Shown in pieces: positions 18,501 to 27,500 of a stretch of 64,000 nt of DNA. Source of the DNA: Xiphophorus maculatus (taxonomy: Eukaryota > Chordata > Actinopteri > Cyprinodontiformes > Poeciliidae). Location of the stretch: positions 21,882,968 to 21,946,967 of the forward strand of contig NC_036456.1 of the NCBI RefSeq assembly GCF_002775205.1, read 5' to 3'. Position 1 is the first letter of the stretch. Each line of letters opens with the position of its first letter. A program made the translations under genes and the position numbers. The notes under the pieces are model-generated. The model was not told the origin of the DNA. It was given only the letters and a program-made list of their open reading frames with translations, and ran no database searches.

Positions 18501-21500
18501 TATCAACAAACTCTACATGCCAGATGTTCCTCCAGTCTCACTCGACTGGCAGAGTTCTGCAAGGAGGAGAGGACAAAAATCCCAAAAAGCAAATGTGAGA
18601 CACTCTGTGGTTACAGAAGACGTTTAGTTGAAGTAACTAAGCTGCTACAAGATGTAACTGAAAAAGGTCTCATACTTTTTCACTTGGCAGATTTTTGACA
18701 GATAAAATACTTTTGTTGAATAAATAATGAAAACATGTAATTTTTTTTCTGTGTCCTTTATTTGGAAGGTCTGCTTTACAGTTTGAGGTTTGGATGTTAA
18801 TTTCACATGATTATTATAAGTTTTCTGTAGGAAACTTATTATTAACTTTCAAGCTGCACTGTAGATACATACTTTTAAATAGAATTAAATAACCTAGTAT
18901 TTTTTAAAAATCTAATTAATTGATTTCTGATGGATTTTGATTCATTTCCTAACAGATTTATTATATAAAATCCTTTTTCCTCTATAAATGTCGACGTTCC
19001 TCTGAATATTTACTACATTCTAATAAAACTTGTTCTTCTGTTTCCATCCCAGATCCCATTTCATGTTTCCTGGATTATGTTGTATTTATTGATTAAGCTT
19101 TATGTGTAGACCTGGTTCTGTGTTCAGTAATAATAATGATAATATTGATTATTCCTGTTTGATCCAGACGACCAGATGCTGTTCTCTCTGTGCGGCGCTG
19201 ATGGAGGCGACGGCTGGCGGGACGACGCCGGACAGACGTGTGAAATAAGTACGACTTCATCAAAGACAGATAGATTTTAATTTATAAACAAAGATATGTA
19301 AACAATTTAAAATATAATTTAAGACACAAATATTGTAATTAACTCAGGTGTTTTGGTTTAACTTTACTGTTTAATGAGAGATTTTTGCCTTTAGTTCAGT
19401 TAAATAAAACTGGAGCAAAAACCTTTAAAAAGCAAACTTGTAATAAAAATAATAAATTGTTTTTTAGTTTTAAAGAGCTACAATTTTATTTCCTACTTTT
19501 AAATTTTCAAATAAAGATAAACATTAAACTTGAATAAAACTTTTGGCTATAGGATGTTGATTTTTGTGAAAAAATATGCAGAATATTTAATATTTTCCAA
19601 CATAATGATTGAAACTGGTTGCATAAAAACACAACTCGTTATTTTTATTTAATTCTGTTCTGGAAATTATTCAGAGAATAAATATCTGTATTCTTTATGA
19701 AGTTATTTAAGTTAATATTCAGTTATTTAAGCTGCAGTTTGCAGAAAGTTTTGTTCGTTCTGCTGATTTAAACAATATGTGTTTTTTTTAATAAAGTCTG
19801 AAAAGTTTTATTTGTATTTTTTTAAATAAAAATTTTCTTTTTAGTTTCATCATTTAAATATAACCTGGAAAGTATTTTATACATATTTTTAAACTAATTT
19901 TAATTTCATTTATATTTGTACAAATATATTTTGACTTTTCTTGTTTATGTTTAACTTTTTATTTCTGTTTTTCAAAATATAAAAATTAATTTGGACTTTT
20001 TGTATTTTAAATTTATGTTTAATTTATTCATATTTTGTTTTTGTGTTTAAAACTTTTCTTTTTAGTTTAATCCTTTAAAGGCAACCCGAAACTCATTTTT
20101 ATTCTATTTATTTATATTTTTTGTTTTTTTTCTTACGTTTCCTATTTAAATTAAACTTTTATTTGTTTGTTTTTTAATTTATTTAAAATGTTCCTAATTC
20201 AGTAACTTTTTTTATTCATGAACTCACTTGTTAACACATTTATTTTTGTAATGATAATTATCCAATGATCAATAAGAACTATAAAAACAGAAGCCCTGGA
20301 CTAGAGCCCTGTGGAACACCACGTTTTATTAAACATGATAATCATATTACAGATGTTAACTTCTGTAATTATTATTTGGCTGATTTGTGTCCAGAGTCGG
20401 AGAATCCTCAGACCCTGAAGATCGTCTCCTACACCGGGGGCCTCACGGAGGACCAACACATCGACAGGCCAGGTTCTGACGAAGCCTCGAGGTTAGAGGT
20501 CAAATCTTCCTCTGATGATAACAGTTCGTCTTTATTAGTTTAACTTTGACTTTAAAATCGTCTTTGTAATTTATTTGGGTCTAAAAAGACAACTCTCCAG
20601 CAACGTGCTGCTCAAAACCTTCAGATGGTGCCAGCAGTCTGAGTCTGTCCAGGTTTTATTAACTGTGTGTCCTTTGCTCAGGTTGACTGATGGAATCAAC
20701 ATGGCCGCCTCTCACATCAGAAACCTGGAAAACTACATGGATCTTAAGATCTGCATCCTGACCGACTGGACCATCCAGGAGGTCTCAGACCAAGGTAGGG
20801 ATGCTCGTCTTCCTCAGGTTCTGTTTCTGGGCTGATTGCTCTGTTCTGAGTGGAACATGGCTGCCGTTTCCCCTCCAGTGGATGATCAGTACCCGGTTCA
20901 CGAGCTGCAGTGTCGCTCAGGCCAGCAGGAAGCCGACTTCTTGAAGCTGCTGAGGTCCACCTTCCCTGTGCTGGCCCCCAGCACTCCCTTTGAGTCCTTC
21001 ATCACTGACCCGACCAACAGGCTGCAACCTCTGGAGGTGCAGGCCTTCACACCGGAGCAGATCTGCAGAGCAGCGGGGAACTCTGCCCTCTACATCCGCC
21101 TGAAGGTACTGCACCCGACCATAAAGCAGAAAACTCAACTTTCATTGACAAACAGGTTGATGAGTGATGGAAAAATTAGAATTATAATGTTGGAATATCA
21201 CTGTAGCGTTAGCTTCTGCTAAGTACTATGTTGGTTAGCCCTTTAGCATTAGCTTCTGCTAAGTACTATGCTGGTTAGCCTTTTAGCATTAGCTTCTACT
21301 AAGTACTATGCTGGTTAGCCTATTAGCATTAGCTTCCACTAAGTACTATGCTGGTTAGCCTTTTAGCATTAGCTTTTACTAAGTGCTATGTTGGTTAGCC
21401 CTTTAGCATTAGCTTCCACTAAGTACTATGTCGGTTAGCCCTTTAGCATTAGCTTCCACTATGTTGAGACATAGCTTTAGTGAAAATACAGATATCAATC

Positions 21501-24500: not shown

Positions 24501-27500
24501 TGTCGTGATGCTCGACTCGGCTGAACTCTGGACGGTTCGGTTTGTTTTCCGTCAGCCGAGTCACAGCTGCACATGGAGGACAAACATTACCACCGTCAGG
24601 CGGCAAAACACGGTGCACAGCGGCTGAAAAATAGTAACAATTAAAAGAATTTAAGGTGCAACAGCAGAAATTCAAAGCATGTAGCTTCACACAGACAGAA
24701 AAATTAAATTACAATAAAATACTACACAGTAACAAATAATGTCCAAAGTGATCAATAATCAGATACATGAGTGAATGTCTACAGTAACAGCACTGCTAGA
24801 TAAGATCTATGCAGAGGCAGAAACTTCACAGATTCTCATTTATTCCAGGGAGGAACAGGAAACGCATCACCTCATCATCGCTGTTTGTCCTCAGAGTGAT
24901 GAGCTGCAAACAAACTGTTGAATTAAACTAATATTTACAGGATTTCCCCCAGAAACAAACATCCAGAGGTAAAATATGCCTAAAGTTTAATGAAAATCTG
25001 AAAAGAAAGATTTTCCACTCCATAAAAATAATACTAAAAACCCATTTTGCTCATGAAGGATGGATCCCAAAGACAGTTTTAGAGTGAGAACTGGACAGGA
25101 CCAAGCATGGAGCCTTGGGGAATCCCATATGAAAAGGAAATACTTTAGTTTCTTTTTTGTACTTTAACTTTCTGACTCAGAGTTAAAAAGCTCCAGTAGT
25201 TTCCTCTCAGTAGTTAACTGTAGTTTATTTAAACTCCTGATCTTCTGGTAAATAACCAAACTGGTGAATCAGCTCTACATTAGCAAACAGTTTCAGTAAA
25301 ACCTGATCTGAGTTTTGATTTCCTCTTTGTTTGTTCAGTTTTTCAGAAGTTTCCGGTCCATGTGCTGACCTGTCCTCGAGGTCTTCCGCAGTCGGACTTG
25401 CTGGCCTTCCTCAGATCCACGTTTTCTCAGCTGGCTTCAGATCAGCCCTTCAGTGTTTTTGCTCTTCAAGGCCAGAAGATGCTGCAGCTGAACCTGAGCA
25501 GCGTGAATCCAGAGGAGATCCGGGCGACCATCGACTCTCTGGAGGCTTCGGTCATCTGCGTCCAGCAGCTGGTGCGTCGACCGCGACCCAGATTCCTTTA
25601 CCTCGACACAAACCGGAGACGTTTAATCACATTCTGACGTATTTCTGAAACTCTAGAAGGATCTTCCTCAGAAAGAAGCCGATGAATCTAAAGATCCTCG
25701 TCCAAGAACTCCACAGGCCAGGTGAGTCAGGAACAACCGGGTTCAACCTGGGGATGGGGATCGACAAGAACTGGTTCTCTATAGGAACTGGTTCTCTACA
25801 GGAACTGGTTCTCTACAGGAACTGGTTCTCTACAAGAACTGGTTCTCTACAAGAACTGGTTCTCTACAAGAACTGGTTCTCTACAAGAACTGGTTCTCTA
25901 CAGGAACTGGTTCTCTAGAAGAACTGGTTCTCTATAGGAACCGGTTTTCTATAAGAACTGGTTCTCAGTACTTCAGATTCTGTTTTCGGTTCCCGTGCCG
26001 TGGCTGTATTTGTTTGATGACATGGAGTGATATTGGAATCGTATTGATAAATCCTAATAAATCTCCATCCTCAGTTAAACTCTTTGATTTCTGACTAATT
26101 TTTCTATTTTCTCTTATTTTGTCAGCATTCAGGAACCCAGCAGGACGAACTCTGACCCAGACGACCTGGTGGAGCTGAAGATCTGCATCGTGGCCGACCC
26201 CATGATAGACGTTGCCTCTCCTCTAGGTTTCAATAGTCAATCAATCAATCAAATTTATTTATGTAGCAGGTTTCAGCAACATGGCAGTTCAAAGAGCTTT
26301 GAATCATAAAAGCACAAAATTACAAAATCATAGAAAAACAGTCAACAAGTGAAATATTACATTTTGTCTGGTTTCGTTGTTAAACATCAGATTATTGATT
26401 AATGTTTCATTGATTAGTAATCATAGCAGCTCTAACCAGCTGGGTTTGTAGTCTAGATTTAAAGGCATTCACTGTTTCAGCAGTTTTGCAGTTTTCTGGA
26501 CGTTTGTTCCAGATTTGTGGTGCATAGAAGCTGAAAGCTGCAGGAATCAAAGCCACTAAAGAGAAACTAAAGCCTGGATGAGTTTCTCTTTAGTCCTGTG
26601 GTCCTGGAAATGTTCTGCAGCTGGGAGAAGACCCAGTTTGGAACAGAAGGGTCAGGTCAGAGGTCAGCCTGATCTCTAGTTCCCAGCTGGAAGAACTGCA
26701 GCTGATCTATAATTCTAGATCTATGACTCTAGATCGCTCCTCTTTAGGTCTGAAGATAATAGCTCCAGTTTTGTTTTTGCTCAGTGTGTTCAGGTCTCCA
26801 TAGCGACCAGCAGTCTTTATTTCTCCCAGTGTTGCAGAAATACCCCGTCCTGGAGTTCCAGTGTCCCGGGACCCTTCAGGAGGCCCAGTTCCTCAGCCTG
26901 TTGCGGACGACCTTCCCTCAGCTGGCTGGAGAAGCGCTGGACTTCCTGACCGGTCACGGCGGCGACGTGAAGCCCATCAACCTGCAGAATCTGACGTCTG
27001 ATGACATCAGCAGGACGCTGAGATCAGCCGGCGGTTCTCTGCTCTACGTCCGCCTGAAGGTCAGAAGCCTTTTCTGTTTCCTGAGGCTCCAGCAGCGCAT
27101 GGAGATGCTTCAGTGTTCAGGTGGGGAGGTGTCGGCTTCATTCGGGTCTCAAACTCTTCCAGGAGCAACGTAACGTCCAGACCGGCATGAAACGGAGTCG
27201 CTCTGACGTTTCTCCCACCAGGTAAGTCCTGAATATTCCTCCAGGCTGTAGATGGATCTCTGTGGGGATTTAAAAATGAAACGAAGCGCGAAGATGCAGC
27301 GTTCTGTTTGCAGAGGTTGAGACCAAACCGCACCGGGGTTCACCGGAGTTCCCTGGGGTTCACTGGGGTTCACCGGAGTTCACCGGGGTTCACTGGGGTT
27401 CACCGGAGTTCCCTGGGGTTCACTGGGGTTCACCGGAGTTCCCTGGGGTTCACCGGAGTTCACCGGGGTTCACTGGGGTTCACCGGAGTTCCCTGGGGTT

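Follow-up and report, generated by a model that had tools for sequence, protein, structure and literature searches.

With regard to the 64,000-nucleotide stretch of Xiphophorus maculatus DNA analysed here (the window; NC_036456.1, positions 21,882,968 to 21,946,967), we observed that an uncatalogued module of about 100 aa (96-106), encoded by two exons, occurs five times in frame within a single gene, gene B, which is probably a zinc-finger gene of fish. Judging from the sequences, the domain is a module common to at least four genes and not confined to gene B, and modelling indicates that it probably adopts a divergent ubiquitin-like (beta-grasp) fold. Our proposal as a whole, in which this ubiquitin-like module would serve for docking and gene B would act as a multivalent adaptor, is given slightly less than an even chance. 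A module of this kind, with a predicted fold and a copy number that runs 1, 1, 2 and 5 across four genes, provides a small testable system, in which one may look for the partner and ask whether avidity depends on copy number.

The gene model obtained from the sequence places gene B at 12535-29889 on the forward strand, with 19 exons, AG and GT borders at all 18 introns, and a single open frame of 1268 aa. Exon 1 (12535..12733) encodes an N-terminal segment, MDYNASKSRLTG..., which is helical by look and resembles by eye the first exons of genes A and C. Exons 2 and 3 (19168-19248 and 20395-20491) are followed by five cassettes, each consisting of a strand exon (S), a domain exon (D) and a linker exon (K) in phases 2-1, 1-0 and 0-2, respectively, in 5/5 units. 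The first cassette comprises S1 (20682..20794, beta1 LKICI), D1 (20879..21105, also from alignment) and K1 (21531..21634); the second, S2 (21720..21835, LKVRV), D2 (22101..22327) and K2 (22413..22474); the third, S3 (22569..22672, LRIHI), D3 (23742..23959) and K3 (24046..24140); the fourth, S4 (24211..24323, LKVFY), D4 (25339..25571) and K4 (25657..25721); and the fifth, S5 (26126..26226, LKICI), D5 (26830..27059) and K5 (27163..27221). The last exon (28527..29889) harbors a charged linker with SUMO-interaction-like sites, then the C2H2 fingers and the stop. The original prediction of five in-frame cassettes in a 19-exon zinc-finger gene was upheld, and all five strand and domain exons, from the first base of S1 at 20682 to the last base of D5 at 27059, lie where it had put them. 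The units measure 444, 405, 417, 411 and 390 nt, every one divisible by 3, so that the reading frame would survive the addition or removal of a unit.

Comparatively, gene A (4948..12371, reverse strand, 715 aa) contains one cassette (S 8349-8219, D 8142-7907, K 7388-7321), and its exon 1 stands head-to-head with exon 1 of gene B. Gene C (34262..39450, forward strand, 868 aa) contains two, with strand and domain exons at 35855-35979 and 36090-36325 for the first and at 37024-37154 and 37218-37462 for the second, and gene E, located 268 kb beyond the window end, contains one. Genome searches with two queries gave the identical result of nine domain places, of which gene B accounts for five, gene C for two, and genes A and E for one each, with the strand exon ahead of the domain exon in 9/9 copies. 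When viral contigs and prokaryote genomes were scanned, each time with a single domain exon, a procedure that detects close relatives only, no relative came to light. Since both ends of the strand, domain and linker cassette are in phase 2, a change in copy number keeps the frame, and we propose that such cassettes may have been duplicated or lost in frame to give the copy numbers seen in E, A, C and B. In the same proposal, the module is the shared middle part of a small C2H2 cluster, in which an N-terminal exon precedes the docking module and a finger array follows it.

The five open domain-exon frames in gene B are more than chance would give, as the frame was kept in fractions of 0.1055, 0.036, 0.0985, 0.0725 and 0.095 of 2000 base shuffles per domain exon, with a product of about 3e-6. 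The differences among D1, D2 and D3 are skewed toward third codon positions (0.434 vs 0.242 and 0.247), and in 28/28 domain-exon pairs of genes A, B and C dN/dS stays below 1, between 0.38 and 0.94; these pairs combine old and young divergence. Among the parts of gene B, blastn at E 1e-4 showed that D1, D2 and D3 match mutually, that D5 partly matches D2 and D3 and that S1 matches S5; at this threshold D4 and the linker exons had no matches, and the only two intron matches, both short, are taken to be minisatellite. Identity reaches 54-60% among D1-D3, 40-47% between D5 and D1-D3, and 30-38% between D4 and D1-D3, D4 being the most divergent copy, from which the common end motif is gone. The copies B1-B3 cluster together with ultrafast bootstrap values of 85 (nucleotides) and 77 (protein), leaving B4 and B5 outside; with gene E included and whole units used, the B1-B3 split received a bootstrap of 42 and an SH-aLRT of 72.7, which leaves the deeper branching order of the copies tentative. 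Because B4 and B5 fail to join B1-B3, a simple five-fold amplification of one unit is not favoured. The earlier claim of an amplification in the gene therefore holds for the five in-frame copies, but it was overstated, given this grouping and the presence of the domain in at least four genes.

During analysis of the fold, AlphaFold2 run on eight window sequences predicted the order strand-strand-helix-strand-strand-helix-strand with a pTM of 0.51, in which beta1 is supplied by the first exon and beta2, alpha1, beta3, beta4, alpha2 and beta5 by the second. The top PDB structure matches of the unit models are ubiquitin-like, all of them short of E 0.001, and the ubiquitin/PB1-type beta-grasp order suggested beforehand is borne out at moderate confidence. 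It is hardly probable that the strand exon instead encodes a short linear motif of SUMO-interaction-like type, a hydrophobic run with acid after it, standing ahead of a domain with four strands. The sequences VRVIEDS and VRILEDS do resemble such motifs by eye, the strand sequence sits in its own exon, and beta1, with a pLDDT of 63-64, is on the lower side in confidence within the modelled core; yet no copy of the domain exon is without a strand exon ahead of it, AlphaFold2 places beta1 in the sheet, and D2 folded alone gives H-E-E-H-E, the beta2 stretch having lost its strand form. The unit is best regarded as a predicted beta-grasp domain, for which we infer a role in protein docking.

None of the 8 whole units matched Pfam, PB1, RAWUL and Rad60-SLD included, the domain exons gave one match among 8 members (DUF7513, E 0.25), and three NCBIfam matches at E 0.17-0.24 are at chance level, in agreement with the earlier remark that the signature belongs to no known named family. 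PDB profile searches revealed no believable relative; the lowest E values, 0.00018 and 0.0045, belong to the designed protein HeliScrew4, for which no single stretch passes alone, and the following rows stand at E 0.23 and 0.35. With hhalign references of seven PB1 and five RAWUL sequences, PB1 came out best among four profile comparisons, at a P of 0.039, and RAWUL had a P of 0.048, neither being significant. The comparison with classical ubiquitin was likewise not significant, and on these profile comparisons identities as RAWUL or as classical ubiquitin were rejected.

PB1 chains are also among the closest PDB structures for both unit models, and beta1 harbors K or R, as in PB1, in 8/9 units, with S in gene E. 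A basic residue in beta1 is present in many ubiquitin-like domains. The OPCA acidic core D-x-[DE]-x-[DE], sought past residue 40 of each unit, is however absent in 9/9 units, and p62 and PKC-iota matched Pfam PB1 whereas the units did not, although these controls are classical members with little bearing on remote kin. According to the description of PB1 domains in PMC7051960, head-to-tail assembly pairs a positive face with a negative one, and type-2 domains are also devoid of the acidic core; our units resemble that description in the predicted beta-grasp fold and, for 8/9 units, the basic residue, and differ from it in lacking the OPCA core and a significant sequence match. With the core absent and only the basic residue in beta1, they could be type-2 PB1 at most, offering one face at most. 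A polymerising PB1 was therefore rejected as the main reading, and head-to-tail stacking of the domains into filaments on chromatin, close to the assemblies imagined in the original prediction, has a slim chance.

Again, the unit might be a distant RAWUL, the domain of PCGF and RING1 proteins, in which case it would bring a PRC1-like complex to the binding sites of A and C. The beta2-alpha1 region of BMI1 stands in register over 24 columns with 38% identity, and the RING1B C-terminal domain appears among the PDB structure matches (3ixs, at rank 48 in one search and present in another, and 3h8h). Many other ubiquitin-like chains rank higher, however, and BMI1, PCGF1 and PCGF3 matched Pfam RAWUL where none of the units did; together with the profile comparison, this makes a Polycomb-type adaptor improbable.

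Pattern counts gave twelve C2H2 fingers each in A and C and three in B, and for B and C the exons with the fingers match Pfam C2H2 zinc fingers. Gene B has no counterparts of fingers 4-12, and no AT-hook-like GRP sequence was found in it. A pattern devised for this analysis (hydrophobic core, then acidic run) detected three SUMO-interaction-like sites in B, at residues 1027, 1087 and 1134, one in A and none in C, and the three in B exceed composition alone. We infer that the longer finger array is ancestral. In A and C, with their twelve fingers, the module would most likely recruit a cofactor to finger-chosen DNA. The missing fingers, the missing GRP sequence and the three sites make a multivalent adaptor the most likely role of gene B, which might collect the partner of the module, and probably SUMO-modified proteins too, in the nucleus. 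We tentatively regard gene B as a multivalent docking scaffold with little DNA recognition left, and not as a usual DNA-binding factor, at somewhat less than an even chance, and this five-copy, three-finger gene would exemplify a zinc-finger gene becoming a scaffold.

The main rival to the docking-scaffold reading is that gene B is decaying, its fingers lost, D4 degenerate, some donors weak and the cassettes drifting. The finger count against that of A and C and the state of D4 are consistent with decay, as is the donor S5-D5, which at 4/9 consensus bases is the weakest among the 18 donors of gene B; the donors E2-E3, S2-D2 and S4-D4 have 5/9 each, but 5/9 donors are found in gene C too. Moreover, 1268 codons remain open across 19 exons, dN/dS is below 1 throughout (old and young divergence mixed), and the SUMO-interaction-like sites go beyond composition, all of which leaves decay unlikely, though it deserves to be weighed. 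In the fullest version of the scaffold reading, a bold and improbable one, a ubiquitin-fold module that is unregistered and, within this genome, confined to a single small zinc-finger cluster equips gene B as a five-valent SUMO-sensing scaffold that has shed most DNA recognition; with gene A, its twelve-finger paralog bearing the same module, standing head-to-head to it, one promoter region would serve both the DNA reader and the scaffold.

With reference to known systems, ray-finned fish are reported to be without KRAB zinc-finger genes and TRIM28 (PMC11603059), which makes it of interest to learn what docking modules their zinc-finger proteins use. The FiNZ genes of cyprinid fish, as described in PMC10547256, are likewise of the C2H2 kind and encode, N-terminally, a conserved module other than fingers; by that description the FiNZ module has 28 aa in a single exon, in about 700 zebrafish genes and in cyprinids only, which sets it apart from the present module of 96-106 aa, two exons and nine places in the genome. 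Ray-finned fish also have KRAB-like zinc-finger proteins, described together with TRIM33, in which an N-terminal interaction module is likewise combined with a finger array and for which a silencing role is proposed (PMC9101882, PMC11603059), a likeness drawn by description only. As regards manner of working only, the Rad60 family carries several ubiquitin-like domains per protein, and ZNF451 unites tandem SIMs and a zinc finger in one protein, in the account of PMC4808808. Our units differ from the Rad60 family in that Pfam, Rad60-SLD included, leaves them unmatched, and in that the five copies are arranged as an exon cassette.

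Gene B, in our sequence-based model a zinc-finger gene of 19 exons on the forward strand (12535-29889), reads in a single frame through 1268 aa, and all 18 of its introns display the expected AG and GT. It harbors five cassettes, each consisting of a strand exon (S), a domain exon (D) and a linker exon (K), and the phases of 2-1, 1-0 and 0-2 that the original prediction had assigned to these exons were recovered in all five. Since the summed exon lengths of every cassette are divisible by three, each constitutes a symmetrical 2-2 module. The chance that all five domain exons stay open was approximately 3e-6 (the product of five shuffle fractions), differences among D1-D3 were commonest at third codon positions, and dN/dS (NG86) was below 1 in each of the 28 domain-exon pairs. 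Donor consensus scores ranged from 4 to 9 of 9, the weakest being S5-D5 (4), followed by E2-E3, S2-D2 and S4-D4 (5 each); two donors of gene C, a related zinc-finger gene, likewise score 5. Units 4 and 5 are the least certain of gene B, the former for its divergent D4 and the latter for its donor. The introns contain minisatellites at 27331-27761 (repeat unit 10 bases or a multiple of this), 25764-25966 (17 bases) and 21204-21461 (40 bases), as well as fragments resembling a retrotransposon reading frame (22987-23373, reverse strand) and a Tc1/mariner-type element (about 17900-18700).

During blastn comparison of the gene B exons, D1, D2 and D3 matched each other, D5 partly matched D2 and D3, and S1 matched S5; at the same threshold, no match was obtained for D4 or the linker exons. 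Intronic matches were confined to two short stretches, taken to be minisatellite. The domain copies B1-B3 share 54-60% identity and a common three-residue gap, and they were grouped in trees of the eight domain exons with bootstrap values of 85 (nucleotide) and 77 (protein), which is why they look like a local triplication; this split drops to 42 when gene E is added and whole units are used. B5 (40-47%) and B4 (30-38%) are not nearer to B1-B3 than the copies C1 (47-52%) and A1 (44-52%) of genes C and A are.

The original prediction described an amplification within one zinc-finger gene; gene B does hold five cassettes, but the module belongs to a family. Within the window, gene A (reverse strand, 715 aa) carries one cassette and gene C (forward strand, 868 aa) two, with phases identical to those of gene B. 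Six-frame searches of the 704 Mb genome (101 contigs) with two domain exons as queries disclosed the same nine places, eight inside the window and one 268 kb beyond its end on the same contig, with E 0.01 passed by 9 of 9 and 9 of 11 first-look candidates, respectively; place counts of this type are lower bounds where families are large. The ninth place, gene E, was read from open frames only and displays exon-1-like, strand, domain and finger stretches in the order of its relatives. Neither query detected a docking-module copy near gene D (1899-3146, forward strand), a further C2H2 exon with ten fingers by pattern, the first of which look, on visual comparison, similar to the fingers of genes A, B and C. 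A second exon-1-like copy lies within the first intron of gene A (about 9500-9670, reverse strand). The 63-nt S2-D2 intron of gene C (37155-37217) is in frame and without stops, and so may be retained.

With regard to family membership, none of the eight whole units matched Pfam up to E 10, the domain exons gave a single Pfam match (E 0.25), and three NCBIfam matches (E 0.17-0.24) were at chance level. Profile comparison against small, hand-typed reference alignments gave P values of 0.039 (PB1), 0.048 (RAWUL), 0.24 (ubiquitin-like) and 0.55 (RA). PB1 head-to-tail assembly is described as pairing a positive face with a negative (OPCA) face (PMC7051960). A basic residue in beta1 occurs in eight of nine units; the OPCA acidic core is absent from all nine, which argues against the PB1-like polymerisation first proposed. 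The nearest themes in the open-access literature were FiNZ and KRAB-like zinc-finger work, and nothing relevant joined C2H2, PB1, a ubiquitin-like domain and teleosts there; as most subscription papers and the fish protein databases lie outside this scope, the docking module may already be known under other names. FiNZ is a 28-aa module distinct from it (PMC10547256).

Finger counts were 12 in A, 12 in C, 10 each in D and E (for both, on the finger exon only) and three in B, whose fingers find their best alignment in fingers 1-3 of gene C; tblastn over 29001-34200 detected no convincing additional finger. A GRP stretch, which we take to be AT-hook-like, precedes the strand in units of A, C and E, whereas GRP is found nowhere in gene B. 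Three separate SUMO-interaction-like sites (four pattern matches) were noticed in gene B, a number of matches reached by none of 3000 shuffles, though the pattern was devised after the sites were seen and the figure overstates the surprise. Gene A has one such site (at least one in 33 of 3000 shuffles), and the pattern has no match in gene C.

A beta-grasp domain ahead of a finger array would most simply serve cofactor docking, and gene B, which has five docking domains and retains few means of reading DNA, would fit a multivalent adaptor. ZNF451, in which tandem SIMs occur together with a zinc finger, and the Rad60 proteins, with two SUMO-like domains (both PMC4808808), are comparable to gene B only in how they would work. 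The putative start codons of A (12371, reverse strand) and B (12535, forward strand) lie head-to-head, 164 bases apart, so the two genes may have a common promoter region. Elsewhere in the window, open frames resembling a TCF/LEF HMG-box gene (46652-47077, forward), a sphingomyelin synthase gene (51816-52352, reverse) and AIMP1 (62890-63483, forward) were observed.
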